Origin: Limnohabitans sp. Rim8
GTDB taxonomy: Bacteria; Pseudomonadota; Gammaproteobacteria; Burkholderiales; Burkholderiaceae_C
Direction: 5' to 3'
Assembly: GCA_945897465.1 (NCBI GenBank)
Contig: CAMDFK010000011.1
Location: forward strand, 30,271 to 94,270
DNA length: 64,000 nucleotides
This document shows positions 1 through 33,427 of the stretch, piece after piece. Position 1 is the stretch's first letter, and each line of letters starts with the position of its first letter. The notes under the pieces were generated by a model, which had not been told where the DNA came from, made no database searches, and was given only the letters and a program-made list of their open reading frames with translations. A program made the translations under genes and the position numbers.

Positions 1-657
1 GAGCAAAACGTGGACGCCGCCAAGGGCTTGTCGCGCGGCAAGCTGCGGGTGGCGGTGGTGAGCACGGCCAAGTACTTCATGCCGCACCTGATTGGCAGTT
101 TTTGCAAGCGGCATCCGGCCATTGACGTGTCGCTCGAAATTCTCAACCGCGATGGTGTGGTGCAGCGCCTGCGTGACAACCTTGACGACCTCTACATCAT
201 GTCCATGCCACCCAAAGACATGGACTTGGGCGATGAGGCCTTCATGCCCAACCCGATTGTGGTGATCGCGCCCATGTCCGACCCATTGGCCAAGCGCAGC
301 GCTGTGCCTTTGCACGAGCTGGTGCAGCGTCGTTTTATCTTTCGCGAAAAAGGCTCGGGCACGCGCATGGCCGCTGACCAGTTTTTCAAGCAGATGAAGT
401 TCCGACCCGATGTGCGGCTGGAGCTGGGCAGCAACGAGGCCATCAAGGAGTCCGTGGCTGGAGGGCTGGGGGTGGGCGTGGTCTCGCGCCACGCCTTGCA
501 TGGCCACCAGAAAGAAAACGGTGTGCGTGTGATCGACGTGCAGGGCTTTCCCCTGCCCTCAGCCTGGCACATCGTCTATCCGGCCGGTAAAAAACTCTCA
601 CCGCTGGCGCTGGCCTTCAAGCAGCATGTGCTCCAACAAATCAGTCGGCGCAAATGA
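1..657 (+). CDS. LysR-family transcriptional regulator, CbbR-like, 3' part only
   Basis: The reading frame is open from the first base of the window, so the N-terminal helix-turn-helix lies upstream and is not visible. The 218 visible residues are the LysR effector-binding (periplasmic-binding-protein-like) domain. They begin with a LRVAVVSTAKYFMPHLIG segment typical of CbbR-type regulators, followed by the second lobe and a GGLGVGVVSRHAL stretch common near the ligand cleft. CbbR proteins control Calvin-cycle genes, but no such genes are in this window, so the target is unknown. The gene converges on the photolyase gene with a gap of about 10 bases. Family assignment is firm; the CbbR subtype is inferred from similarity only. 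Confidence 0.85.
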   Translation, partial: EQNVDAAKGLSRGKLRVAVVSTAKYFMPHLIGSFCKRHPAIDVSLEILNRDGVVQRLRDNLDDLYIMSMPPKDMDLGDEAFMPNPIVVIAPMSDPLAKRSAVPLHELVQRRFIFREKGSGTRMAADQFFKQMKFRPDVRLELGSNEAIKESVAGGLGVGVVSRHALHGHQKENGVRVIDVQGFPLPSAWHIVYPAGKKLSPLALAFKQHVLQQISRRK

Positions 658-667
658 CCGTGGCGTC

Positions 668-2206
668 TCAGACGCTGTCCAGCCCCGCCCGCGTGGCATC
701 CGCTTGCAGATTGATCTGCGCCTTGTTTTCCGCGCTCATCTTGCCCACATGCTTGACCATGAGCGCGGTGCGCGGGTTGCCCGCAAAGTCTTGTTCGTGG
801 CGGATCAAAAAATCCCAATACAAGGTGGTCATGGGGCAGGCGCTGGGGCCGGTGCGCACTTCAGGCTGGTAACGGCAGCCTTTGCAGAAGTTGCTCATGC
901 GGCTGACGTATTGGCCGCTGGCCACATAGGGCTTGCTGGTGAATCGCCCGCCGTTGGCGTGCAGGGCCATGCCCAGGGTGTTGGGCGTTTCCACCCATTC
1001 CACCGCATCGATATACATGGCGCGGTACCAGGCGCTGACTTGCTGCGGTGACAGCCCGGCCAGCACCGCAAATTGCCCGGTGACCATGAGGCGCTGGATG
1101 TGGTGGGCGTAGCCGTGCTGCAGGCTTTGCCCAATGGTGGCTTGCATGCAGGCCATGTGGGTGTTGCCTGTCCAGTACCACTTGGGCAAGTCGCGGCTGT
1201 GGCCGTAGTGGTTGGCTTCGGCCATGTGCGGCATGTCCAGCCAATACACCCCGCGGATGAACTCGCGCCAGCCCAGCACCTGGCGGATGAAGCCTTCCAC
1301 GCTGGCCAGCGGCAGGCCGCGTTCGTGATAAGCCTGCTCGGCCGCCACAATCACTTCGCGCGGGTGGAGCAGGTGCAGGTTCAGGCTGCTGCCCACCAGG
1401 GCGTGCCAGCCAAAGGGCAGCGTGGTCCACATGGCGTCTTGCCATGCGCCAAAATTTTCGAGCCGCTGGTCGATGAAGTGCTGCAGCGCCACCAGCGCGT
1501 CCTCGCGGGTCACGGGCCAAGCAAAGTGCTCGAGTGTGCCCGGGTGCTGGGCAAAGCGTGTTTGCACCAGCGTGATCACGTCTTGTGTGACGCGGTCGGG
1601 TGCAAAGCGGGCGGGCGGCGGCACGGTACCCGGGCCTTTGGCGCCAAAACCTTTGCGGTTTTCGGCGTCGTAGTTCCATTGGCCGCCGATGGGCTCTTTG
1701 CCTTCCATCAGCACGCCGTGCTTTTTGCGCATCTCGCGGTAAAAGAATTCCATGCGCAGCTCTTTTTTGTCGCCCGCCCACTTGGCAAATTCGGCGCGGC
1801 TGCACAAAAAGTGCTTGTCGCCCACCCAACGCAGCAGTATCTGGGCTTGGGCTGTGGTGTCTTCGATCAGCCTTTCCATGCGCCAGGCCCCGGCTTCCAT
1901 GACCACCAGGGCTTGGGGTCGGTGGGTGGCCAAGGCGTGGGCCAAGCGCCCGGCAAAGTTCAAGGGGAGCTCGGTGTCGTCCACCTTCACATAAGTGCAG
2001 GGCCAGCGGCGGCGGTGCGCTTCATTGGCAAAGTGCCGCATGCCCGACAAAAAGATGGCGATCCGGGCTTGATGGTTCCAGACTTCATCGGCTTCGCTGT
2101 CGGCCTCGATCATCAAGAGCCGGTCTTGGGCAGGGTCAAAGTCGGCCAAGGCCGGGTTGTCCCAGCCGAGCTGGTCGCCCAGCACCAAAATCAGGTGGCG
2201 GGTCAT
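668..2206 (-). CDS. FeS-containing cryptochrome/photolyase (prokaryotic (6-4) photolyase type)
   Basis: 512-residue protein of the PhrB/CryB class (FeS-BCP), which repairs (6-4) photoproducts or senses light using FAD, a ribolumazine antenna and a [4Fe-4S] cluster. The N-terminus MTRHLILVLGDQLGWDNP is the typical antenna-domain opening. Four candidate cluster cysteines are C353, C441, C444 and C457; the spacing of 88, 3 and 13 residues equals that recalled for Agrobacterium PhrB (C350, C438, C441, C454). The ATG at 2206 was preferred over the longer frame because it starts the conserved domain and overlaps the upstream DUF2256 stop as ATGA, implying translational coupling. The partner gene also supports a light-damage role. 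Confidence 0.93.
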   Translation of the reverse strand: MTRHLILVLGDQLGWDNPALADFDPAQDRLLMIEADSEADEVWNHQARIAIFLSGMRHFANEAHRRRWPCTYVKVDDTELPLNFAGRLAHALATHRPQALVVMEAGAWRMERLIEDTTAQAQILLRWVGDKHFLCSRAEFAKWAGDKKELRMEFFYREMRKKHGVLMEGKEPIGGQWNYDAENRKGFGAKGPGTVPPPARFAPDRVTQDVITLVQTRFAQHPGTLEHFAWPVTREDALVALQHFIDQRLENFGAWQDAMWTTLPFGWHALVGSSLNLHLLHPREVIVAAEQAYHERGLPLASVEGFIRQVLGWREFIRGVYWLDMPHMAEANHYGHSRDLPKWYWTGNTHMACMQATIGQSLQHGYAHHIQRLMVTGQFAVLAGLSPQQVSAWYRAMYIDAVEWVETPNTLGMALHANGGRFTSKPYVASGQYVSRMSNFCKGCRYQPEVRTGPSACPMTTLYWDFLIRHEQDFAGNPRTALMVKHVGKMSAENKAQINLQADATRAGLDSV

Positions 2207-2388
2207 CGGGCACCTCGGTCGCCGTTGGGGCTTTTGGACTTGTCGGCTCTGCAGCGGTCGCTGCAATACAGCACGTTATCCCAGTTTTTGGCCCAGCTTT
2301 TGCGCCAGCTCATGGCCCGGCCACAGACGGTGCACGGCTTTTGCGGCAAATCCTGTTTGTTCCCTTTAAAACCCGAGGTTTTGGGCAT
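2203..2388 (-). CDS. DUF2256 family small zinc-ribbon-like protein
   Basis: 61-residue protein starting MPKTSGFKGNKQDLPQK, with a CTVCGRAMSWRKSW segment and a CSDRC motif. The two Cys pairs suggest a zinc-binding fold typical of DUF2256. The start at 2388 has a GGAGA ribosome binding site just upstream on the minus strand. The stop overlaps the photolyase start (ATGA), so both are made from one transcript. DUF2256 genes are commonly found beside cryptochrome/photolyase genes, but no biochemical role is known to me. The upstream promoter lies in the divergent space shared with the glutathione peroxidase gene. Confidence 0.88.
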   Translation of the reverse strand: MPKTSGFKGNKQDLPQKPCTVCGRAMSWRKSWAKNWDNVLYCSDRCRADKSKSPNGDRGAR

Positions 2389-2475
2389 GTTCGTCTCCGG
2401 TGAAAAGGTGCTGACGTGACAATTGATCCAAACAAGTTTAAACTGAGCAGTCACAAAATGGATTTTCAAGTGCAA

Positions 2476-3081
2476 ATGAACCACTCATGGGTAAAACAAT
2501 GGGGTGCCAGTCTGCTGATGGCCATCGTGGCTGCCATGCTGGGCTTGGGACTCGAAACCGTGCAGGCCAGCCCTCCAAAAGCGGCTAACGCTCAGGCCTG
2601 TCCCGCCATCCTCAACCACACGGTTGACCGTTTACAAGACGAAAAGCCCCAATCTCTGTGCCAATATGCAGGCAAAGTGGTGCTGGTGGTCAACACTGCG
2701 AGTTTTTGCGGCTTCACGTCCCAATACAAAGGTCTCGAAGCCCTGAACACCCAGTACAAAGACAAAGGCTTGGTGGTGCTTGGCTTCCCGTCCAACGATT
2801 TCTCGCAGGAAAAAGGCAGCAACAAGGACATTGCGGCCTTTTGCGAAAGCACCTTCGGCGTGAAGTTCCCGATGTTCACCAAAACCCAAGTGACTGGCGA
2901 GGGCGCAGCCCCCCTGTTCAAACAGCTCACCGCACAAACTGGCCAAAAGCCCCGCTGGAACTTTCACAAATACCTGATTGGCCGCGACGGCAAGGTGATT
3001 GACCAATACAACAGCATGGTTGGGCCCGAGAGCAAAACCCTGTTGGCGGCCATCGACAAAGCCCTGAAGGCGCAGCCATGA
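2476..3081 (+). CDS. glutathione peroxidase family protein with N-terminal signal/anchor
   Basis: Thiol peroxidase of the glutathione peroxidase family, reducing hydroperoxides with a catalytic cysteine instead of selenocysteine. From the start at 2476, a hydrophobic segment covers residues 11-26 and ends near a possible signal peptidase site, so export or membrane anchoring is likely. The peroxidatic Cys is C78 in NTASFCGFT. A GFPSNDF segment replaces the usual FPxNQF, so the canonical Gln is Asp here. The conserved WNF motif follows. Possible alternative starts are ATG 2458 and GTG 2416; the latter has AAAGG upstream. The stop overlaps the next start (ATGA). Location suggests lipid-peroxide defence within the operon. 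Confidence 0.88.
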   Translation: MNHSWVKQWGASLLMAIVAAMLGLGLETVQASPPKAANAQACPAILNHTVDRLQDEKPQSLCQYAGKVVLVVNTASFCGFTSQYKGLEALNTQYKDKGLVVLGFPSNDFSQEKGSNKDIAAFCESTFGVKFPMFTKTQVTGEGAAPLFKQLTAQTGQKPRWNFHKYLIGRDGKVIDQYNSMVGPESKTLLAAIDKALKAQP

Positions 3082-4421
3082 GTGTGATAACCCAGCCGCG
3101 CATGAAACTGGCCATTGTGGGTTCGGGCATCTCCGGCTTGGCTGTGGCCCACACCCTGAAAGACCATGCCGACATCACCCTGTTCGAGGCGGGTGACTAC
3201 TTTGGTGGCCATACCCACACGGTGGACGTCACGCTGCCCACGCCCAAAGGCCTGGTCACACACGGCGTGGACACGGGTTTTTTGGTGTTCAATGAGCGCA
3301 CCTACCCCAACCTGATCAATCTGTTTGCCGAATTGAAGGTCGAGACTGCGCCGTCCGACATGTCGTTTTCAGTCAAGGTGCCCGGGGCCCTGAACGGCAA
3401 AACCCTGGAGTGGAGCGGCACCGACCTGAACAGCGTGTTCGCGCAGCGCGGCAATTTGGTCAACCCACGTTTTTGGCGCATGTTGGCCGACGTGATGCGC
3501 TTCAACGCGCTGTGCACCCGCATTGCCAAAGAGCAGCGCGAAAAAGAGCTGCAGCAGCCCCTGTCCGACTTTTTGCGCACGCACCAATTCAGCGAGCCGT
3601 TTCGCGACTGGTACTTTTTGCCCATGCTGGGCTGCATCTGGAGTTGCCCGACCGACCAGATGCTGCAGTTCCCGGTGGCGACCATGATCCGTTTTTGCCA
3701 CAACCATGGCCTGATTCAGGTGACGAACCGCCCGCAGTGGTTCAGCGTGGTGGGCGGCGCCCGAAACTACGTCGAGAAAATTTTGGCGGGCCTGCACGAC
3801 AAGCGCTTGAACACGCCCGTGCGCTTGATCGAGCGCGACGCAAAAGGCGTGCGCATCATCACCGACGGACACGCCGAGCGCTTTGACCAAGTGGTCATTG
3901 CGACCCACACCGACCAGGCGCTGAACCTGCTGCGCCAGGCTTCTGGTGAGGAGCGCAGTTTGTTGGGCGCCATTCGATACCAAGACAACCGCGCGGTGCT
4001 GCACACCGATGCCAGCGTGCTGCCGGCCAACCCCAAGACCTGGGCCGCTTGGAATTACGAACGCGCCGCCAGCAGCGAGCGCGAGTCCTCGCGCGTGTGC
4101 TTGCATTACTTGCTCAACCGTTTGCAGCGCATCCCGTTTGCGCAGCCCGTGGTGGTGTCACTCAATCCTTTGCAGGACATCGACCCGGCCACCATCTTGG
4201 GTGAATTCGACTACGCCCACCCGGTGTTTGACTTGGCCGCCATCGAGGCGCAAAAACGTCTGCCCTTGCTGCAAGGCCAGCAGAGCACCTGGTTTGCCGG
4301 GGCATGGGCAGGGTATGGCTTCCACGAAGACGGCTTGAAGTCTGGCCTGCAAGTGGGCCGCGCCTTGCTCAAACTCATCCACGAACAGGCCAGCCCTGTT
4401 CAGGACAGACTGGTCGCATGA
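3078..4421 (+). CDS. NAD(P)/FAD-dependent amine-oxidase-like oxidoreductase (COG2907 type)
   Basis: 447-residue flavoprotein with an N-terminal Rossmann dinucleotide motif GSGISG at residues 15-20, followed by an FEAGDYFGGHTHTV segment typical of this amine-oxidase/desaturase-like family. The start overlaps the glutathione peroxidase stop as ATGA and its own stop overlaps the DUF1365 gene as ATGA. Members are regularly found with DUF1365 and cyclopropane-fatty-acid-synthase-like genes, and a role in oxidative modification of membrane fatty acids is likely. The substrate is not known from sequence. An alternative start at MKLAIVG (3102) is possible, but the overlap favours 3078. Confidence 0.9.
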   Translation: MSVITQPRMKLAIVGSGISGLAVAHTLKDHADITLFEAGDYFGGHTHTVDVTLPTPKGLVTHGVDTGFLVFNERTYPNLINLFAELKVETAPSDMSFSVKVPGALNGKTLEWSGTDLNSVFAQRGNLVNPRFWRMLADVMRFNALCTRIAKEQREKELQQPLSDFLRTHQFSEPFRDWYFLPMLGCIWSCPTDQMLQFPVATMIRFCHNHGLIQVTNRPQWFSVVGGARNYVEKILAGLHDKRLNTPVRLIERDAKGVRIITDGHAERFDQVVIATHTDQALNLLRQASGEERSLLGAIRYQDNRAVLHTDASVLPANPKTWAAWNYERAASSERESSRVCLHYLLNRLQRIPFAQPVVVSLNPLQDIDPATILGEFDYAHPVFDLAAIEAQKRLPLLQGQQSTWFAGAWAGYGFHEDGLKSGLQVGRALLKLIHEQASPVQDRLVA

Positions 4422-5299
4422 AGTCCACACAGGTCCCTGCTGCCACCGCCCTCATCGGCTGGGGACAGGTGCGCCACACGCGCCACCGCCCGGCGCACCA
4501 CGCGTTTGCTTACCCCACCGCGTTTTTGATGCTGCCCATGCGCAGCTTGCAGGTTATACAAGCGCAACAGGTCCATGGATCGACTGGGCCCCTCAAAATC
4601 GCCGTCACTGCGAGCGAAGCGCGGCAGTCCATGGCGGGGTCGACCTTCAACCCCGCTTTGGCCCTGAGCATCAACCGCAGCGCCTGGATTGCCTTTCACG
4701 ATGCCGACCATGGCGACGGCCGCCCGGCAGAGACGGGCGGGGCCTTGGCCTGGCTCGATGCCTTGCTGCAGCGCGAGGGCATTGAAGACGCCACAGGCGA
4801 GGTCTGGCTGCAGGCTTTCCCGCGTGTGCTGGGCCATGCCTTCAAGCCCGTGAGTTTTTGGTATGCGCACCGCACTGACGGCAGCCTGGCCGCCATCGTG
4901 GCCGAGGTGAACAACACCTTTGGTGAACGCCATTGCTACCTGCTGCCCGAGCCGCAATACGGTCAAACCATGTTGGCCCACAAAGTCTTCCACGTCTCGC
5001 CCTTTTGTGATGTGCAAGGCGAGTACCGATTCCGCTTCATGCGTGTGACGCACGGCGGGCAAGACCGCATCGTGGCGCGTGTGGACCATGGCGACGCCGA
5101 CGGCCCCTTGATTGACACCAGCTGGAGCGGCGTGCTCGAGCCCGCCACCGCTGCCGCGCTGCGCCGCGTGATGTGGCGTTTTCCGCTGCTGACGTTTGGC
5201 GTGGTGGCCCGCATCCACTGGCATGCGCTGTTGCTGTGGCTGAAAAAAGTACCGTTTTGGCGCAAGCCCGAGTTGCCCCGCGATTTTGTGACCCGATGA
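4418..5299 (+). CDS. DUF1365 domain protein with an in-frame REP-like insertion
   Basis: 293-residue DUF1365 protein, of unknown biochemical function and consistently linked to the flavin oxidoreductase upstream and the CFA-synthase-like gene downstream. Conserved stretches visible are the RHTRHRP segment near the N-terminus, FHDADHGDG, and PVSFWYAHR with the following EVNNTFGERHCYLL. Between the N-terminal strand and the FHDADHGDG block lies an extra segment of about 30 residues containing VTASEARQSM, encoded by a dispersed palindromic element copy at 4604-4634. The frame stays open, so the gene is probably functional. Both ends overlap neighbours by ATGA. The start at 4418 is supported by that overlap. 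Confidence 0.9.
   Translation: MKSTQVPAATALIGWGQVRHTRHRPAHHAFAYPTAFLMLPMRSLQVIQAQQVHGSTGPLKIAVTASEARQSMAGSTFNPALALSINRSAWIAFHDADHGDGRPAETGGALAWLDALLQREGIEDATGEVWLQAFPRVLGHAFKPVSFWYAHRTDGSLAAIVAEVNNTFGERHCYLLPEPQYGQTMLAHKVFHVSPFCDVQGEYRFRFMRVTHGGQDRIVARVDHGDADGPLIDTSWSGVLEPATAAALRRVMWRFPLLTFGVVARIHWHALLLWLKKVPFWRKPELPRDFVTR
4604..4634 (+). repeat. REP-like dispersed repeat copy inside DUF1365 gene
   Basis: These 31 bases match 39148-39178 at 29 of 31 positions, and two further C residues immediately upstream also match. Only the left arm and loop of the palindrome seen at 39148-39203 remain; the right arm is not recognisable. It is read in frame as VTASEARQSM. A related gtccatggatcgac fragment lies just upstream at 4571-4584. 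Confidence 0.8.
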
Positions 5300-6570
5300 A
5301 CACTGGACCCCACTGGATGCCCACCACGATGAAGACCGCCGACCACGCCCAATCCTTGGGAAGCCGTGCCAACACCATTTCGCACGCCAGCTTGCCCAAA
5401 GCCGCAACGCGCTTGCTGAGCCTGTTGACACGCCTGAAAATCGGCACGCTCACGGTGCATGCGCCGGATGGCCATCAACAGGTTTTTGGCACACACGAAG
5501 CGCCCTTTGCGGCTGTGCATATCCATCGCTGGGACATGTGTGCCGAGGTGCTCAAATCGGGCGACATTGGTTTTGCCGAGGGCTACATGGCGGGGGATTG
5601 GACAACGCCCGATCTGGCCGCCCTGCTGCGCCTGACGATCGCCAACCGCGACCACATCGAGAGCGCGATTTATGGCCATTGGCTGGGACGTTTGTTCTAC
5701 CGCATCAAGCACTTGCTCAACCGCAACAACCGAACCAACAGCCGCAAAAACATCCACGCGCATTACGACCTGGGCAATGCTTTTTACGAGCTGTGGCTGG
5801 ATGGCACGATGAACTACTCGTCGGCCTGGTTCGAGGGCGACCACACGAAAGACATGGCCGAAGCCCAAAGGGCCAAGGTGCGCCGCGCCTTGCGTATGGT
5901 GAATGCCAAGCCAGGCGACCGGGTGCTGGAAATCGGCTGCGGCTGGGGCGCATTGGCCGAGGCGGCCACCACCGAGTTTGGTGCACACATCACGGGTGTG
6001 ACCTTGTCCACTGAGCAGTTGGCTTTTGCCAACGCCCGCATGCAATCGTTCGGTGTTCAAGGAAGCGCTGACTTGCGATTGCAAGACTACCGTGACATCC
6101 ACGACGGCCCTTACGACGCGGTGTGCTCGATCGAGATGATCGAGGCGGTGGGGCAAGAATATTGGCCGACCTATTTCCAGACCGTGAGCCGCATGCTCAA
6201 GCCCGGTGGACGCGCGTGTATCCAAAGCATCACCATCGATGACCGATTTTTTGAGCGCTACTTGCAATCGACCGACTTCATTCAGCAGTACATCTTTCCA
6301 GGGGGTTGTTTGCCCAGTCCCAGCGAGTTCCGCAAACAGGCGAAAGCAGCGGGCTTGCAGGTGGTGGACGAGCTCAACTTTGGACCCGATTACGCCGAAA
6401 CCCTGCGCCGTTGGCGCGGCAGCTTCATGTCGCAATTGGACACCGTGCGCTCGCTGAAATTTGACGACAGATTCATTCGGCTGTGGTCCTTTTACCTGGC
6501 GTACTGCGAAGCGGCTTTTGACGAAGCCAGTATCGACGTCATCCAATTTACATTGGCCAAACCGGCCTGA
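5296..6570 (+). CDS. cyclopropane-fatty-acyl-phospholipid synthase-like SAM methyltransferase
   Basis: 424-residue protein of the CFA synthase/mycolic acid cyclopropane synthase family, transferring a methyl or methylene group from S-adenosylmethionine to unsaturated acyl chains in membrane phospholipids. The SAM-binding motif I is VLEIGCGWGALAE, preceded by HYDLGNAFYELWLDG and followed by CSIEMIEAVG, all family landmarks. The start at 5296 overlaps the DUF1365 stop (ATGA); ATGs at 5317 and 5329 also exist. In this operon with a flavoprotein and SDR it may make a modified fatty acid other than plain cyclopropane, such as a methylated or furan type; that is inference. Confidence 0.92.
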   Translation: MNTGPHWMPTTMKTADHAQSLGSRANTISHASLPKAATRLLSLLTRLKIGTLTVHAPDGHQQVFGTHEAPFAAVHIHRWDMCAEVLKSGDIGFAEGYMAGDWTTPDLAALLRLTIANRDHIESAIYGHWLGRLFYRIKHLLNRNNRTNSRKNIHAHYDLGNAFYELWLDGTMNYSSAWFEGDHTKDMAEAQRAKVRRALRMVNAKPGDRVLEIGCGWGALAEAATTEFGAHITGVTLSTEQLAFANARMQSFGVQGSADLRLQDYRDIHDGPYDAVCSIEMIEAVGQEYWPTYFQTVSRMLKPGGRACIQSITIDDRFFERYLQSTDFIQQYIFPGGCLPSPSEFRKQAKAAGLQVVDELNFGPDYAETLRRWRGSFMSQLDTVRSLKFDDRFIRLWSFYLAYCEAAFDEASIDVIQFTLAKPA

Positions 6571-7190
6571 TGCCCATGAGCCACTTGTTCCAAAACATCC
6601 GCGCACCGCGCCTTCACCCATGGGGTCTGCAGGTGCTGGCTTGTGCGCTGTTGTTGGGTGCCTTGGCGTGTGAGGTGCGGGCGCAAAGCACGACCGTGAG
6701 CAGCCCGAATGCGGCCTTCTCGCGCCCCGAAGTGACCAGCTTGGGCGGCGTGGTGCCGACCGCGCCTGTGCGTTTGCGGGTCTGGGGTTTTGAGGTGTAC
6801 GACGCCCGTTTGTGGACGCCCGTGGGTTTTCGGCACAGCGCTTACACGCAGTTTCCGTTTGCGCTGGAGTTGCAGTATTTGCGCAAACTCGAAGGCGCGG
6901 CGATTGCCAGCCGCTCGATCGATGAGATGCGGCGCGTGGGTTCGTTCAATGACGCCCAAGCGCAAAGCTGGCTGACCGCCATGCGAGAGCTGTTTCCCAA
7001 TGTGGCTGCGGGGGAACGCATCACGGGCGTGAACCTGCCGGGCGTGGGGGCCGAATTTTGGGTCAATGGGCAGCGTGTGGGCGCGGTGAAAGACCCAGCT
7101 TTTGCGCGTTTGTTTTTTGGCATCTGGTTGGATGAGCGCACATCGGAGCCCAAAATGCGTGCCCAGCTGCTTCAAGGTTTGCAGCCATGA
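6570..7190 (+). CDS. chalcone-isomerase-like periplasmic protein (Chalcone_3 type)
   Basis: 206-residue protein with an N-terminal hydrophobic segment (about residues 17-36) ending in a likely signal peptidase site near VRAQS. The mature part has the chalcone isomerase-like fold signature: VWGFEVYDARLW, ALELQYLRKLEG and PAFARLFFGIWLDERT. Bacterial members are not true flavonoid enzymes; the plant relatives include fatty-acid-binding proteins, which fits the lipid context. The start shares one base with the CFA-like stop (TGATG) and its stop overlaps the MFS start (ATGA). Exact role unknown. Confidence 0.85.
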   Translation: MPMSHLFQNIRAPRLHPWGLQVLACALLLGALACEVRAQSTTVSSPNAAFSRPEVTSLGGVVPTAPVRLRVWGFEVYDARLWTPVGFRHSAYTQFPFALELQYLRKLEGAAIASRSIDEMRRVGSFNDAQAQSWLTAMRELFPNVAAGERITGVNLPGVGAEFWVNGQRVGAVKDPAFARLFFGIWLDERTSEPKMRAQLLQGLQP

Positions 7191-8521
7191 GCGGTTCTGT
7201 CCTGTTAGACCCGGCAACTCTGCCGAGCCAGGCCTCGGCTGCGTATGGCTTGCTGGGCTTGCCATTGGCTTTTGTGGCCTTGCCGGTGTATGTGCATTTG
7301 CCCAATTTGTATGCCCAACAGTACGGTGTGACGCTGGCCGCTTTGGGCGCCGTGCTTTTGCTCAGCCGCAGCATTGACGCGGTGGTGGACCCTTGGCTGG
7401 GGCGTTGGGGCGACAAGTTGTACCGCCATTCATGGCAGGCTGTGTGGCTGGCGGCTGTCTTGTTGGCCCTGGCCGTGGCGCTGGGTTTTGCGGCTTTGTT
7501 TTTTCCACCCGCAGCGGCTTTGTCGCCTACGGGTTTGCTGGTGTGGGTAGCTTGTGCGCTCACGCTCAGTCACTTGGCGTACAGCGGCTTGGGCATCTTG
7601 CACCAGGCCTGGGCGGCGCGGCAAGGCGGTGGTGGGGTCGCGCAAAGCCGCTGGGTGGCTTGGCGCGAGGGATTCGCGCTGGTGGGTGTCTTGCTGGCGT
7701 CTGCCCTGCCCGCGCTGTGGGGTTGGGGGCCAACAACGGCCTTGCTGGTGCTCATGCTGGCGCTGGGCTTGCTCTTTTGGCGGCGGGTGGCACGCAGCCC
7801 CTTGGCATCGACCGTCCCGGTGGTCGCCAGTCATGCCGTGGGCAGCCTCTGGCAGCCCTGGCAGCACGCGGGCTTTCGCCGCTTGTTGATGGTTTTTATG
7901 CTCAACGGCCTGGCCAGTGCCGTGCCCGCTACGCTGGTGCTGTTTTTTGTGCAAGACCTGATCCAAGCGCCCAAGACCATGGAGCCGCTCTTTTTAGGTC
8001 TGTACTTTGCTGCTGGAGCGCTGTCGTTTCCCTTGTGGCTCAAGGTGATCGACCGCGTGGGACTGCTGCGCACCTGGGCCACTGGCATGGTTTTGTCGGT
8101 ACTGGCTTTTGTGGGGGTGGTCACGCTGGGCGCGGGTGACACCACAGGGTTTTTGATCGTGTGTACTTTGTCTGGCATGGCACTGGGCGCAGACCTCACG
8201 GTGCCTGGTGCCCTGCTCAATCAGCTGATCGACCGCTGTGGTGAGCGCGGGCGCACAGACGGCGCGTTCATGGGTTGGTGGAATTTGGCCACCAAACTCA
8301 ATTTGGCTTTGGCCGCTGGGCTGTCGCTGCCATTGCTCGGTCTGTGGGGTTACACCCCAGGCCAGCAAGGTGCCGATGCTGTGCTGGCGCTGGGCCTGGC
8401 CTATGGCCTGCTGCCTTGTGTACTCAAGCTTTTGGCCGGACTGGCTTTGTATGCGGGCCTGATGCGTCGCCCTGATTTGATTTCGGGGTCTGATGCAACC
8501 CAAGCCCACCCCCCGGCGTGA
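7187..8521 (+). CDS. MFS transporter of the GPH (sugar:cation symporter) type
   Basis: 444-residue integral membrane protein with about 12 predicted hydrophobic helices. The early motif LLLSRSIDAVVDPWLGRWGDK is the GPH-family signature with the conserved Asp pair near helix 2. It starts within the stop of the chalcone-isomerase-like gene (ATGA). Orthologous operons also carry such a carrier, so it probably moves a lipid-related or small organic compound across the inner membrane; the substrate cannot be read from sequence. It is followed by a 33-base gap and a fresh ribosome binding site for the next gene. Confidence 0.88.
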   Translation: MSGSVLLDPATLPSQASAAYGLLGLPLAFVALPVYVHLPNLYAQQYGVTLAALGAVLLLSRSIDAVVDPWLGRWGDKLYRHSWQAVWLAAVLLALAVALGFAALFFPPAAALSPTGLLVWVACALTLSHLAYSGLGILHQAWAARQGGGGVAQSRWVAWREGFALVGVLLASALPALWGWGPTTALLVLMLALGLLFWRRVARSPLASTVPVVASHAVGSLWQPWQHAGFRRLLMVFMLNGLASAVPATLVLFFVQDLIQAPKTMEPLFLGLYFAAGALSFPLWLKVIDRVGLLRTWATGMVLSVLAFVGVVTLGAGDTTGFLIVCTLSGMALGADLTVPGALLNQLIDRCGERGRTDGAFMGWWNLATKLNLALAAGLSLPLLGLWGYTPGQQGADAVLALGLAYGLLPCVLKLLAGLALYAGLMRRPDLISGSDATQAHPPA

Positions 8522-8554
8522 TGCCGCTTTGAACAGACAACACGGGAGCCCCCC

Positions 8555-9151
8555 ATGCAACAACCGCACATCGCCATGATTCACCGCCGCACCGCCCTGA
8601 GCCGCCTGGGCGCTTTGTCCGTGGTCGCGGCCACGCCCTTTGTGGCCAGCTGCGCTGGGCCGCAGGTGCAACAGTACGCACAAGAAAAACCGCTGCTGGA
8701 TTTGCGCACCTACTTCACCGGCACCATCGACGCTTGGGGCGTGTTCACCGACCGCAGTGGCCAGGTGGTCAAACGTTTCACCGTGGTCATGGACTGCAGC
8801 TGGAACGGCGACGATGGCGTGCTGGACGAGGCCTTTGTGTACTCGGATGGCACCAAGCAGCGCCGTGTCTGGCGGCTCAAAGCTGGGCCCAACGGCAGCT
8901 ACACCGGCCGCGCCGACGATGTGGTGGGCGAGGCCTCGGGCCAAGTCAGTGGCAACGCGTTCCGCTGGGGCTACACCCTGGCTTTGCCGGTCGATGGCCG
9001 GGTCTGGAATGTTGATTTTGACGACTGGATGTATCTCATGGACGACCGTGTCATGCTCAACAAAGCCACCATGAGCAAATGGGGCGTGAAACTGGGCGAG
9101 GTCACTTTGTCGTTCACACGCCGCATGCCTTTGGCGGCCAAGCCGGGTTGA
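8555..9151 (+). CDS. DUF3833 family lipoprotein
   Basis: 198-residue protein with an N-terminal export signal containing RRTALSRLGAL and ending at VASC, a probable lipobox with lipidated Cys near residue 33, so it is expected to be membrane anchored. The mature domain contains the DUF3833 features YFTGTIDAWGVFTDRSG and a FDDWMYLMDDRVMLNKATM block. The fold is lipocalin-like in related families, suggesting lipid binding. A GGGAG ribosome binding site precedes the ATG at 8555. The stop shares a base with the SDR start (TGATG). It is a usual member of this flavoprotein-CFA operon type. Confidence 0.88.
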   Translation: MQQPHIAMIHRRTALSRLGALSVVAATPFVASCAGPQVQQYAQEKPLLDLRTYFTGTIDAWGVFTDRSGQVVKRFTVVMDCSWNGDDGVLDEAFVYSDGTKQRRVWRLKAGPNGSYTGRADDVVGEASGQVSGNAFRWGYTLALPVDGRVWNVDFDDWMYLMDDRVMLNKATMSKWGVKLGEVTLSFTRRMPLAAKPG

Positions 9152-10044
9152 TGCGCATGAACCCCCATTCCTCTGGCGCCGCTGCACTGCCCACTGAAAC
9201 GGCCGATATGCCCATGCCCAAAGTGGGTCCACAAACTGCTTCGCCTTCCCCGCAGGCCCCAGCCAGAAACTGGCTGCAGCTGAACACGCCCATCACCGAT
9301 TGGCAGGGCCGCCGGGTTTGGCTGGTGGGTGCTTCCACCGGCATTGGCTTGGCTTGTGCACAAGCGCTGCGCTCGGCCGGGGCGCAGGTGGTGGTGTCGG
9401 CCCGCAATCCGCAAGGCGTGTTGGAATGGGCCAAGAAAGATGCGGGCGTGAAGTGGTGTGCGCTGGATGTGAGCGATGCCGCCCAAGTGCAGGCCATGGC
9501 CCGAGCCTTGTTGGCCGAAGGCCCACTCGATATGGTCGTTTATGCGGCGGGTTACTACCGCGCCCAACGCGCCACGGCCATGGACATCAACGACTTGCTT
9601 CAGCACGACAGGGTCAACTACCAAGGCGCTTTGCAGGTGATTCACGCGGTGCTGCCCGGCATGCTCGCGCGAGGCAGCGGGCACATCAGCCTGCTCAGCA
9701 GCGTGGCCGGTTGGCGTGGCCTGCCCAATGGTCTGGCTTACGGCCCGACCAAGGCCGCCCTCACCCACTTGGCCGAGACGATGTTCATGGATTTGCAAGA
9801 CCGAGGCATTGGCGTGAGCGTGGTCAACCCCGGCTTTGTGGCGACACCGCTCACGGCGCAAAACGAATTCACCATGCCCGCCCTGATCAGTCCCGAAGAG
9901 GCCGCCCGCCAAATGCTCAAAGGCTGGGCTGCAGGTCAGTTCGACATCCATTTCCCCAAGCGTTTCACGCTTTGGCTCAAACTGCTGCGCTTGCTGCCTT
10001 ATCGCCTCTACTTCCCGTTGGTGCGCAAGTTCACGGGGCTGTAA
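9151..10044 (+). CDS. short-chain dehydrogenase/reductase (SDR)
   Basis: 297-residue classical SDR. After a Pro/Ala-rich N-terminal tail of about 45 residues comes the NAD(P)-binding motif GASTGIGLA, then the NAG-equivalent YAAGYYR, the catalytic Ser in LLSSVAGW and the active-site YGPTK. It should oxidise or reduce a hydroxy or keto group; the substrate is unknown, but the operon suggests an acyl chain. The start at 9151 overlaps the DUF3833 stop by one base; ATG 9157 is an alternative. The C-terminus is basic and hydrophobic and could associate with membrane. Confidence 0.9.
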   Translation: MRMNPHSSGAAALPTETADMPMPKVGPQTASPSPQAPARNWLQLNTPITDWQGRRVWLVGASTGIGLACAQALRSAGAQVVVSARNPQGVLEWAKKDAGVKWCALDVSDAAQVQAMARALLAEGPLDMVVYAAGYYRAQRATAMDINDLLQHDRVNYQGALQVIHAVLPGMLARGSGHISLLSSVAGWRGLPNGLAYGPTKAALTHLAETMFMDLQDRGIGVSVVNPGFVATPLTAQNEFTMPALISPEEAARQMLKGWAAGQFDIHFPKRFTLWLKLLRLLPYRLYFPLVRKFTGL

Positions 10045-10064
10045 GTCTGAATTGAAAGCCGATC

Positions 10065-10499
10065 ATGGACAAGCGACAAACCACACAAAAACTGGCCACG
10101 TTTTTTGAAACCCTGTCACCGCAAAGCGTGACCCAGCTGAATACGGTCTACCACGCACAAGCCACCTTCAAGGACCCTTTTAATGAGGTGCAGGGCCTGC
10201 CCGAGATTGAGCGCATTTTTCGGCACATGTATGTGGCACTCGAGCAGCCGCACTTTGTGGTGACCGGCCAGGTGGTGGACGGCTCACAGGCCTTCCTGAC
10301 CTGGGAGTTTCGCTTTCGTTTCAAGCGCTTTGACACCGCCACACTGCAAGCCGTGCGGGGTGCCAGCCATGTGGTGTTCAACGAGCAAGGCTTGGTGACG
10401 ATGCACCGCGACTACTGGGATGCGGCCGAAGAGCTGTACGAAAAACTGCCGGTGCTCGGCGGCGTGATGCGTTGGCTCAAAAAACGCGCCAACAGTTGA
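10065..10499 (+). CDS. nuclear transport factor 2 / SnoaL-like protein
   Basis: 144-residue single-domain protein of the NTF2-like fold, with an N-terminal helix, a YHAQATFKDPFNEVQG segment and beta strands ending DYWDAAEELYEKLPVLG. Such proteins bind or isomerise small hydrophobic molecules, or are simple ligand-binding domains. It follows the SDR after 20 bases and is the last gene of the rightward operon. No catalytic residues can be assigned with certainty. The next gene is on the other strand. Confidence 0.85.
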   Translation: MDKRQTTQKLATFFETLSPQSVTQLNTVYHAQATFKDPFNEVQGLPEIERIFRHMYVALEQPHFVVTGQVVDGSQAFLTWEFRFRFKRFDTATLQAVRGASHVVFNEQGLVTMHRDYWDAAEELYEKLPVLGGVMRWLKKRANS

Positions 10500-10572
10500 G
10501 GCACAGCCAACCGTGTCGGGGCTTGACAGGATTGGCTACGGTGCAATTTAGAATGCGCTTGATTCAAGTGAG

Positions 10573-11541
10573 TTATTCAATCTTGATTCCTGCTTCTTTC
10601 ACCACTTTGCCCCATTTGTCGAGTTCAGACACCATCAACTGGGACATCGCATCGGGTGTTGACAGGCTGACTTGAACGCCAGCGTCGAACATGGCTTTTT
10701 GGGTCTCGGGCGTGTTCATGATCTTGGCGACGTCGCTGTTGAGGCGGTTGACGATGTTGGCAGGTGTGCCTGCGGGGGCCAAAAGGGCCAGCCAAATCGT
10801 GGCGTCATAACCGGGCACGCCCGCTTCTTGCATGGTGGGCACATTGGGCAGTTGGGGAATGCGTTTGGCGCTGGTCACAGCCAATGCGTTGAGTCGGCCA
10901 TTGGGCACTTGGGCCAGTGCATTGGGCACGCCTGCAAAACTGCTCTCCACGACACCGGCGACCAAGTCTGTGGCTGCCAAATTGCTACTTCGGTAGGGCA
11001 CATGCTTGAGTTGGGTCTTGGTCATGGAGGCAAACAGCCCGCCAATCAAGTGCTGAGCGCTGCCATTGCCCGATGAAGCGAAATGGACACCATTGGGTTG
11101 CGCTTTGGCCAGAGCAATGAACTCCTGGACGTTTTTGGCAGGGACCTTGGGGTTGGTCAATAAAACATAAGGTGAGTCCACCAACTTGGTCACAGGTGTG
11201 AAGGCTTTGATCGGGTCATAGGGGATGGTTTTGTAAATCCAAGGGCTGATCACGTGGGTGGAAGACACAATCAACAGGGTGTGTCCATCCGGGTTCGATT
11301 TGGCGACCTGGTCGGAGCCGATCGTGGAGCCAGCGCCAGGCTTGTTTTCAATCACCACGGGCTGGCCAAGGCTTTCACTCAGCTTCACACCCAAAATGCG
11401 CGCCACCACATCGGTGAAGCCGCCGGGCCCAAAGGGCACCACAATTTTGACGGGTTTACTGGGATAGGTTTGGGCCCAAACAGCACTTGCCGAGAAGGTC
11501 AACAAGGCTGCAGTGCATACGGCGTTCAATAGCTTTTTCAT
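10573..11541 (-). CDS. Bug-family (TctC-like) tripartite tricarboxylate transporter substrate-binding protein
   Basis: 322-residue periplasmic solute receptor. The signal peptide ends near SASAVWAQ at residue 24, followed by YPSKPVKIVVPFGPGGFTD, the Bug-family opening whose loop contacts the ligand carboxylate. The second landmark is GSTIGSDQVAKSNPDGHTLL. Bug proteins capture carboxylated compounds; no TctA/TctB membrane genes are in the window, so it may work with a distant partner or as a sensor. It is the last gene of a leftward cluster and begins 3 bases after the hydrolase gene, so co-transcription is almost certain. Confidence 0.92.
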   Translation of the reverse strand: MKKLLNAVCTAALLTFSASAVWAQTYPSKPVKIVVPFGPGGFTDVVARILGVKLSESLGQPVVIENKPGAGSTIGSDQVAKSNPDGHTLLIVSSTHVISPWIYKTIPYDPIKAFTPVTKLVDSPYVLLTNPKVPAKNVQEFIALAKAQPNGVHFASSGNGSAQHLIGGLFASMTKTQLKHVPYRSSNLAATDLVAGVVESSFAGVPNALAQVPNGRLNALAVTSAKRIPQLPNVPTMQEAGVPGYDATIWLALLAPAGTPANIVNRLNSDVAKIMNTPETQKAMFDAGVQVSLSTPDAMSQLMVSELDKWGKVVKEAGIKIE

Positions 11542-32007: not shown

Positions 32008-32646
32008 TCACCAGCGCAGCCATCGCCCACCGAGCAGGGCGCCCAAACCGGTGGCCAAGGCCATGCCCCCCACGTACCAGACGGCGAAAAACGTCAGGCT
32101 GGTTTCGGGGCAATGCAGCGAATAAATACTGGCTGACAAGCTGCCCGCCAACATACCCGCTACGGCACCCGTGAGTACCGGGCGGGTGGGGGCCAGCTGG
32201 CGCAAGGCCCAAAACATGGCGCCCAATATCGGCAAAGCCAAGGCCGCGATGCTCACCGAGCAAACCTGCCAGGAGCCGCCCATCCAGTGTGCGGTGCGTG
32301 TACCTGCATCGGTTTGCAGCAGCTGCACCAGACCCAAGCTGAACATGGCCATCAGCGCCAGGCCCATGCCCCACAGGGTGTGACCCGCCCCCATGCCGGG
32401 CCGGGCCAGGCGAAACAAACCATACAAACTGAAGCCCATCAGGGCCGCCAACCACAGCATCTTGGTGGCAAAGGCGGGGTGCGTTGCCATTTCGTCCATG
32501 CGTGGGTTCAGGCCGAACAAAGCGAGCAGCAGCACGCCACAGACCGCCGCACCGAGCACCAGTTTCTGCAGCAATTGCTGGCGCACGGGAGGTTGTGGCT
32601 GCAGCGTATCGCTGGCCAGCAAGGCAATCAGGTCGTTCGTTTTCAT
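32008..32646 (-). CDS. DUF1109/NrsF-like membrane protein, candidate anti-sigma factor
   Basis: 212-residue membrane protein starting MKTNDLIALLASDTLQPQPP, with about six hydrophobic helices. The family (DUF1109) includes Caulobacter NrsF, which holds the ECF sigma SigF inactive at the membrane until a stress signal arrives. Two Cys residues, in SWQVCSV and LHCPETS, could be redox-sensing, as reported for NrsF, but this is inference. Its start overlaps the sigma-factor stop (ATGA), so the two are made together, as expected for a sigma/anti-sigma pair. Confidence 0.85.
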   Translation of the reverse strand: MKTNDLIALLASDTLQPQPPVRQQLLQKLVLGAAVCGVLLLALFGLNPRMDEMATHPAFATKMLWLAALMGFSLYGLFRLARPGMGAGHTLWGMGLALMAMFSLGLVQLLQTDAGTRTAHWMGGSWQVCSVSIAALALPILGAMFWALRQLAPTRPVLTGAVAGMLAGSLSASIYSLHCPETSLTFFAVWYVGGMALATGLGALLGGRWLRW

Positions 32647-33203
32647 GACTTCGCTCCCCATTTGGCCATCAAGGTTTTCAGGCCCCTGTGGATGTTGACT
32701 TTGACCGAGGCTTCGCTTTGCCCGGTCCGCTCGGCGGTCTCGGTGATCGACAAACCCATCAGCCGCGTGTGCTCGATGGCTTCACGTTGGCGCACAGGCA
32801 AATCGGCCAACATCACATCCAAGTCCTTGTGTGCATCGCTGGCGGCTTCATCGCTGTCCACCGCCAGGATTTCAGACCAGTCGTCGATGTCGTCGTGCAG
32901 GCCCTCACGGCGGCCGTGGGCGCGCAAATGGTCCACCCATTTGTAACGCGCAATCGCATACATCCAGGCCGTCAGGGGCTGGTCGCTTTGGTAGGTGTGG
33001 CGCTTTTGATGGATCGCCATCAGGGTTTCTTGCACAAGGTCCTCGACATCGCTGAGTTGGGATTGCATCCGTTTTTGCAAAAAGCGCCGCACATGGCCAC
33101 TCATCAGGCTCAAGGCCCGTTGGTAACTGGCGTGATCGCCTTGCAGGGATTGCATCCATGCGGCGTGCAGTTCGGCTTCATGGGTTTGCAGGCTTTCGCT
33201 CAC
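32643..33203 (-). CDS. ECF RNA polymerase sigma factor
   Basis: About 186 residues with sigma region 2 (DVEDLVQETLMAIHQKRHTY, then LTAWMYAIARYKWVDHLR) and region 4 (LPVRQREAIEHTRLMGLSITETAERTGQ, a helix-turn-helix), and no region 3, which is the ECF layout. The likely start is GTG 33203, giving VSESLQTHEAELHAAW; an unbroken frame to TTG 33287 exists but adds an atypical tail. It is translationally coupled to the DUF1109 gene, so activity is presumably released by an envelope or oxidative cue. No second regulator is nearby. Confidence 0.9.
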   Translation of the reverse strand: MSESLQTHEAELHAAWMQSLQGDHASYQRALSLMSGHVRRFLQKRMQSQLSDVEDLVQETLMAIHQKRHTYQSDQPLTAWMYAIARYKWVDHLRAHGRREGLHDDIDDWSEILAVDSDEAASDAHKDLDVMLADLPVRQREAIEHTRLMGLSITETAERTGQSEASVKVNIHRGLKTLMAKWGAKS

Positions 33204-33427
33204 AACGTCAGTTCGTTTTGGTGGGTGGAAAAGTGACAAGCTTGCCGGAAAATAAAAAATTTTTGAGTACTGTAACCATTTGGACAAGGGCCTCGAATGA
33301 CAAAAGGACGACCGTTGATGCGGTTACTTGAGCATTGCCCAAGGTCGTCAATAGGACGAATGCCCTACAGTTTGTCTCATGAATCACAGTGGGCCAATGG
33401 CCAAAGCTTTTTTTGAATAAAACACTT

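Follow-up and report, generated by a model that had tools for sequence, protein, structure and literature searches.

Limnohabitans sp. Rim8 carries, at positions 668–10499 of a 64,000-nucleotide stretch of its genome (GenBank assembly GCA_945897465.1, contig CAMDFK010000011.1, positions 30,271 to 94,270; hereafter the window), a run of rightward genes faced by two leftward ones, which we describe here as a probable furan-fatty-acid operon with an unusual candidate switch. The source genome comprises 3.02 Mb in 48 contigs and is 99.5% complete, with the window on contig C11. Gene families were assigned through Pfam profile matches to the window proteins; every family named in an initial annotation made from the DNA letters was borne out across 668–10499, as was its count of six overlapping joints, five of the ATGA type and one TGATG. 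The features are as follows.

668–2206, minus strand: iron–sulfur (FeS)-type photolyase (PF04244; DPRP/FeS photolyase; Pfam E 4e-75, solved FeS photolyases E 4.5e-143)
2203–2388, minus strand: DUF2256 protein (Pfam E 5e-20; start codon picked from the alignment)
2416–2444, plus strand: sigma-70-like promoter GTGACA-N17-TAAACT (kept in 47 aligned rows)
2442–2453, plus strand: palindrome ACTG-AG-CAGT plus CA, a candidate TetR operator over the −10/start region (from conservation; binding predicted)
2476–3081, plus strand: glutathione peroxidase (GSHPx; Pfam E 2e-31; signal-peptide-like N terminus; Cys type by eye)
3078–4421, plus strand: UfaD homologue, amine-oxidase-like flavin adenine dinucleotide (FAD) protein (Pfam Amino_oxidase E 4e-17)
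4418–5299, plus strand: UfaO homologue (DUF1365; Pfam E 1e-72)
5296–6570, plus strand: UfaM homologue, S-adenosylmethionine methyltransferase of the cyclopropane-fatty-acid (CFA)-synthase superfamily (Pfam CMAS E 4e-86; Ser/Gln signature)
6570–7190, plus strand: chalcone-isomerase-like protein (Chalcone_3; Pfam E 9e-11)
7187–8521, plus strand: MFS_2 (GPH-type) carrier (Pfam E 3e-35)
8555–9151, plus strand, start at 8555 or 8576: DUF3833 protein, lipobox by eye (Pfam E 8e-70)
about 9208–10044, plus strand, start uncertain: short-chain dehydrogenase (SDR; Pfam E 1e-36)
10065–10499, plus strand: SnoaL_2/NTF2-like protein (Pfam E 2e-13)

The core of the run is the set UfaD, UfaO and UfaM. In Rhodobacter sphaeroides and Rhodopseudomonas palustris, UfaM methylates vaccenoyl phospholipid, the FAD protein UfaD desaturates the methylated chain and the DUF1365 protein UfaO inserts oxygen from O2, and the R. 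palustris genes are ordered RPA2571 (ufaD), RPA2570 (ufaO) and RPA2569 (ufaM) (PMC7380195). The window holds all three families together and in that order. The initial annotation had guessed at a modified, possibly furan, membrane fatty acid; as the core agrees with ufaD–ufaO–ufaM in both family and order, this guess is well supported by homology, and the run is very probably a furan-fatty-acid operon. The arrangement recurs widely. Among 81 fetched loci, selected because UfaO is present and with some genomes counted twice, the ufaD–ufaO–ufaM order occurs in 78 and is interrupted by contig ends in the remaining three; a divergent photolyase accompanies it in 45, DUF2256 in 46, the MFS gene in 69 and DUF3833 in 74. 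An operon on a plasmid of Azoarcus sp. KH32C (L243) repeats the whole eight-gene order from ufaD to the NTF2-like gene, at 41–57% identity over the compared genes. Given the 78 loci and this plasmid, the arrangement is not one of chance. The Azoarcus operon differs in its divergent MerR gene and in that the peroxidase, photolyase and DUF2256 genes are not adjacent to it.

Two points temper the assignment. Identities were computed against plasmid-locus comparators that stand in for the characterised Ufa proteins (UfaD 44–50%, UfaO 35–43% and UfaM 48–53%, the last from two comparators): Mesorhizobium terrae, in which rpoE–chrR is divergent to ufaD–ufaO–ufaM; Azospirillum thermophilum, in which rpoE–chrR lies one gene off and only a short methyltransferase is annotated; and Azoarcus KH32C, with its MerR gene beside the operon. 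Moreover, single deletions of RSP1087, RSP1088 or RSP1089 left the fatty acids of R. sphaeroides unchanged (PMC7380195), which leaves part of the run unexplained. For UfaO, a structure model (predicted local distance difference test score 83, predicted template-modelling score 0.84) consists mainly of antiparallel strands and a long C-terminal helix; a Foldseek comparison with the PDB returned no match at E ≤0.001 (best 0.057), so its mechanism is unreadable from the fold, which may possibly be an unusual one for an O2-using lipid enzyme.

The third core enzyme, the methyltransferase, invites a different reading: it could be a cyclopropane synthase, and the lipids made or handled by the run cyclopropanes rather than furans. 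Its best NCBIfam matches are indeed CFA-synthase models, albeit with scores below their cut-offs. Cys139, Glu239, His266, Ile268 and Tyr317 (E. coli numbering) are strict in non-plant cyclopropane synthases (PMC3132707). In an alignment of 79 rows, the window and 78 loci, Glu239 and Ile268 are retained throughout, Cys139 is replaced by Ser in 78 and His266 by Gln in all 79; the UfaM of M. terrae, encoded beside rpoE–chrR, has the same Ser/Gln pair. By these two replacements, the window methyltransferase is not a canonical bacterial CFA synthase. The residues are no proof of product, since cotton synthases, which share the Ser/Gln changes, nonetheless produce cyclopropane (PMC3132707), a point that weighs against the furan assignment. 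With the replaced residues and with UfaD and UfaO encoded alongside, we judge a cyclopropane product improbable.

The comparison with R. sphaeroides, in which the initial annotation had rightly placed genes of this kind under sigma-E/ChrR, extends beyond the core: the RSP1091–1087 operon includes a GPH symporter (RSP1089) and an SDR (RSP1087) (PMC7074977), and genes of both kinds are present here. There, rpoE–chrR adjoins the operon and ufaM (RSP2144) lies apart, whereas here there is no rpoE–chrR; and here, unlike there, a peroxidase, an FeS photolyase and DUF2256 adjoin the operon. The RpoE2–ChrR regulon of Shewanella oneidensis and the rpoE–chrR locus of Rhodobacter capsulatus likewise include peroxidase, photolyase/cryptochrome and cfa-type genes; they differ in being under ECF11, a sigma-E/ChrR group of extracytoplasmic function (ECF) sigma factors, with the Shewanella genes in several loci and no RSP1087–1091 homologues in R. 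capsulatus. The phrB/ufaM region of Pseudomonas mendocina and P. putida resembles the run in its photolyase, SDR, FAD oxidoreductase and ufaM, and the described part of its circuit has no sigma-E (PMC9758184).

An ordinary sigma-E/ChrR operon, with its sigma and anti-sigma genes elsewhere or in an assembly gap, would account for the gene set, which is that of the ECF11 core regulon (PMC6852236, PMC4336711), and for a single TGATCC at 2424. We surveyed 60 sampled Limnohabitans genomes, the Rim8 genome included. ChrR (TIGR02451) was above cut-off in none of the 60, with a positive Caulobacter control; weak matches in 39 all start at model position 79 or later, which we take to be the cupin part of the model. 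The TGATC-N16-20-CGTA sigma-E motif is absent from the intergenic region and from the vicinity of the operon, and the TGATCC at 2424 sits in a stretch that varies among relatives; the motif precedes rpoE as well as ufaD in each of the two alphaproteobacterial plasmid comparators (L242, L244). Across the window it has two matches (14684 and 15097), where chance predicts 0.43. We therefore regard an ECF11 operon with displaced regulators as highly improbable, and the operon as very probably outside ECF11 control as judged from these searches. The statement in the initial annotation that the locus lacks both sigma and ChrR stood for the locus and, for ChrR above cut-off, is now extended to the genome and the genus sample; it does not carry over to sigma factors genome-wide, as five sigma region-2 matches occur in the Rim8 genome, two of which were examined and are ECF-type with the partners NrsF and DUF3619. 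One of these, at 32643–33287, lies with an NrsF-family anti-sigma (PF06532, E 2e-56) at 32008–33287 on the minus strand of the window, and was rejected as an ECF11 member because its partner is NrsF rather than ChrR; it is the one sigma/anti-sigma pair of the window that was examined. Cupin_7 proteins were likewise rejected as ChrR: among eight matches in the Rim8 genome, four over cut-off, the two scanned show nothing beyond cupin domains.

The gap between the DUF2256 and peroxidase genes holds a block, GTGACAA-N7-AAA followed by AGTTTAAACTGATCAGTCAC, that is near-invariant in 47 rows (some genomes appearing twice) and reads as a −35 GTGACA, a 17-base spacer and a −10 TAAACT, with TATACT at −10 in some relatives. 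No other sigma-70-type site lies in 400–10700; as 1.6 would be expected there by chance, the case for a promoter rests on conservation. The run thus appears to start at a conserved sigma-70-like promoter whose −10/start region is overlapped by ACTG-NN-CAGT. The first gene most likely begins at 2476 rather than at the ATG at 2458, which is missing in some relatives. In deep-branching members AGTTTAAACT is not conserved and ACTG-NN-CAGTCAC is, which makes the latter the likely operator. Exact TAAACTGNNCAGTCA matches number 34 in the 60 genomes, 30 at the operon and four elsewhere, with three for the reversed pattern.

The best candidate for the protein that binds the palindrome is a TetR-family regulator, whose gene is divergent to ufaD in a Comamonas locus (L127) and in L117. 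Of the 60 genus genomes, 53 have a single ortholog at 52–59% identity, one has it split into two pieces, and in six none was detected (G004, G017, G045, G049, G058 and G059). The Rim8 copy, at C5:120637-121227, is unlinked to the operon and adjoins a PhoD-like gene.

The same half-sites recur before tetR. Promoters were readable at 28 of 30 tetR loci (L172 and L183 left out), the rows comprising loci from 21 of the 54 genus genomes with tetR (those that scored best, plus Rim8) and seven outgroup rows; two other Limnohabitans records are also included, and L175 and L234 look like the same genome. As the rows are related, they are not 28 independent tests. The half-site pattern ACT-N4-AGT, formulated after these promoters had been seen, gave 26 summed mismatches against 48.6 (standard deviation 2.6) in shuffled sequences, with 0 of 200 shuffles doing as well, and 62 in coding stretches; controls with altered spacing stayed near the shuffled values (N3, 51 against 49.0; N5, 55 against 49.1). 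The pattern ACTGNNCAGT, fixed beforehand, gave 54 against 75.7 (standard deviation 3.1).

At the operon itself, promoters were readable in 51 of the 56 DUF1365-bearing genus genomes. All 46 that bear tetR have the palindrome, 589–666 bases before ufaD and with at most two mismatches. Among the five that lack tetR, the site is not there in G045 and G059, which have LitR, and only its −10 half is present in G004, G017 and G049; G004 and G045 reach two mismatches at unrelated places only. Three of the five cut promoters could also be read (G002, G005 and G058), with the site in all three. In a co-occurrence count of 69 rows, made at a fixed threshold with outgroups added, with L102, L106, L107 and L110 excluded as duplicates and cut promoters left unlabelled, 49 rows have both tetR and the site and 12 have neither. 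On the UfaD tree, the losses within the genus amount to one clade plus the LitR pair, and the palindrome decays in most tetR-less genomes, without phylogenetic significance.

Several observations weigh against the TetR link. The Rim8 tetR promoter matches the half-site weakly, and no exact ACTGNNCAGT occurs within 18 kb around that gene. In G058, an assembly of 680 contigs, the site is present but tetR was not detected. Five of the 69 rows have tetR without the site, and three (G004, L105 and L108) have a site score without tetR, partly from the −10 itself. tetR was found in nine of 22 searched genomes, three of which (L115, L116 and L123) lack the site. A co-loss test on the UfaD tree had three independent pairs, too few to reach significance. 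Finally, the palindrome may not be exclusive to the operon, as two of the four off-operon matches share a homologous stretch before a gene. Because the co-occurrence lacks phylogenetic significance and has these exceptions, we lean with measured confidence towards the TetR-family protein as the direct regulator of the operon.

Two further observations concern the same loci. The tetR-less Limnohabitans loci L102, L105, L106, L107 and L108 also lack the divergent photolyase, DUF2256 and MFS genes at the operon. The off-operon TAAACTGNNCAGTCA at position 1501 of L231 and L232, which belong to two genus genomes, precedes what by eye is a solute-receptor gene, the two stretches being 73% alike over 213 bases; this gene is a possible second target of a palindrome-binding protein.

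The palindrome could instead belong to a regulator other than TetR, such as a light-responsive MerR protein of LitR type whose gene lies elsewhere, since its link to TetR is purely statistical. Six named loci (L115, L120, L121 (cut), L123, L128 and L130) have a LitR-type gene divergent to the operon, with MerR and B12 domains confirmed in two scanned proteins of such loci, and so do G045 and G059 within the genus. Five of the 60 genus genomes encode a protein that resembles LitR over most of its length, three of them at a site other than the operon. In Pseudomonas, ufaM is light-induced under LitR control, with LitR acting as a repressor at TGTACA-N12-TGTACA boxes and a light–oxygen–voltage (LOV) photoreceptor as its antagonist (PMC9758184), in contrast to the control proposed for the window operon. 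The Rim8 genome, however, gave only a helix–turn–helix match to LitR, in a MerR protein without a B12 domain, and the intergenic region has no TGTACA-N12-TGTACA-type box, although betaproteobacterial LitR boxes may differ. We consider control by LitR or another non-TetR protein unlikely, though a serious contender. The MerR protein in question is encoded on contig C21 (L156, 745–1758, minus strand), and similar helix–turn–helix-only matches recur in the genus. These loci also qualify the novelty that the initial annotation saw in a ChrR-free gathering of the genes: other Betaproteobacteria also have this run without ChrR and with a divergent MerR gene of the LitR type. The sigma-70-like promoter with its palindrome, the TetR candidate and the host's reaction-centre genes were absent from that earlier reading.

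Reaction-centre genes bear on the source of singlet oxygen. Two adjacent ones (PF00124, E 4e-108 and 3e-96) are present in the Rim8 genome, the family occurs in 41 of the 60 genus genomes, and a photosynthesis gene cluster is recorded for two Limnohabitans strains (PMC3591437); with two such genes in the host, a source of singlet oxygen is plausible. Because genus members that lack reaction-centre genes can also have the operon, phototrophy is no condition for it. A rhodopsin search of the Rim8 genome gave no match, but no positive control responded and nothing follows from it. In a humic lake, Limnohabitans-related phylotypes rise or stay unaffected under singlet oxygen, and one isolate adapts after mild singlet-oxygen pre-exposure, the data not being shown there (PMC3965437); the operon is a candidate cause of that adaptation.

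Taken together, we think it likely that the run is an operon for furan-fatty-acid synthesis and photo-oxidative defence, probably repressed by TetR rather than controlled by sigma-E/ChrR. UfaM would methylate vaccenoyl chains of membrane phospholipid, UfaD would introduce a second double bond into the methylated chain and UfaO would close the furan ring using O2; the furan chain would then scavenge singlet oxygen within the membrane, while the peroxidase would handle peroxides and the FeS photolyase UV lesions. The photolyase matches its family over the full length and, aligned to 5kcm, has four cysteines in its C-terminal domain, presumably the ligands of the FeS cluster, which places it among the FeS-BCP proteins. 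Bacteriochlorophyll, given the host's reaction-centre genes, and external humic water are the likely sources of singlet oxygen. The TetR-family protein, encoded elsewhere, would bind the palindrome and repress the operon until a signal releases it.

The operon is thus of a known kind, and its regulatory switch is the new part. One conserved module has sigma-E/ChrR as its neighbour in the alphaproteobacterial comparators and LitR in several Betaproteobacteria; in Pseudomonas it is controlled by LitR, and in most Limnohabitans probably by TetR. We infer from these arrangements that the switch was exchanged during evolution. The matches listed in a literature search, which mostly did not cover subscription journals, included no TetR-controlled ufa operon and no Limnohabitans ufa operon. 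If correct, this would mean that three unrelated switches can each drive a single lipid-defence module. Singlet oxygen of sunlit humic water shapes lake communities, and the operon is a concrete candidate for the mechanism by which the Limnohabitans isolate adapts. A more specific proposal, speculative and on balance doubtful, is that the TetR repressor takes the role that sigma-E/ChrR or LitR has in other bacteria, and that its release is triggered by an acyl chain (oxidised, methylated or furan) that its own operon makes or destroys; membrane singlet-oxygen damage would then be sensed directly by a one-component repressor in a self-contained lipid-sensing loop.

Within the genus, DUF1365 (UfaO) is present in 56 of the 60 sampled genomes and in all 36 of high quality, and UfaO relatives at 71–84% identity are nearly all Limnohabitans or Comamonadaceae/Burkholderiales records. 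One record, L075 (CALQKH020000010.1), is titled Akkermansia muciniphila; its title looks wrong, because the operon there is a Limnohabitans one, with 81–93% protein identity for most genes.

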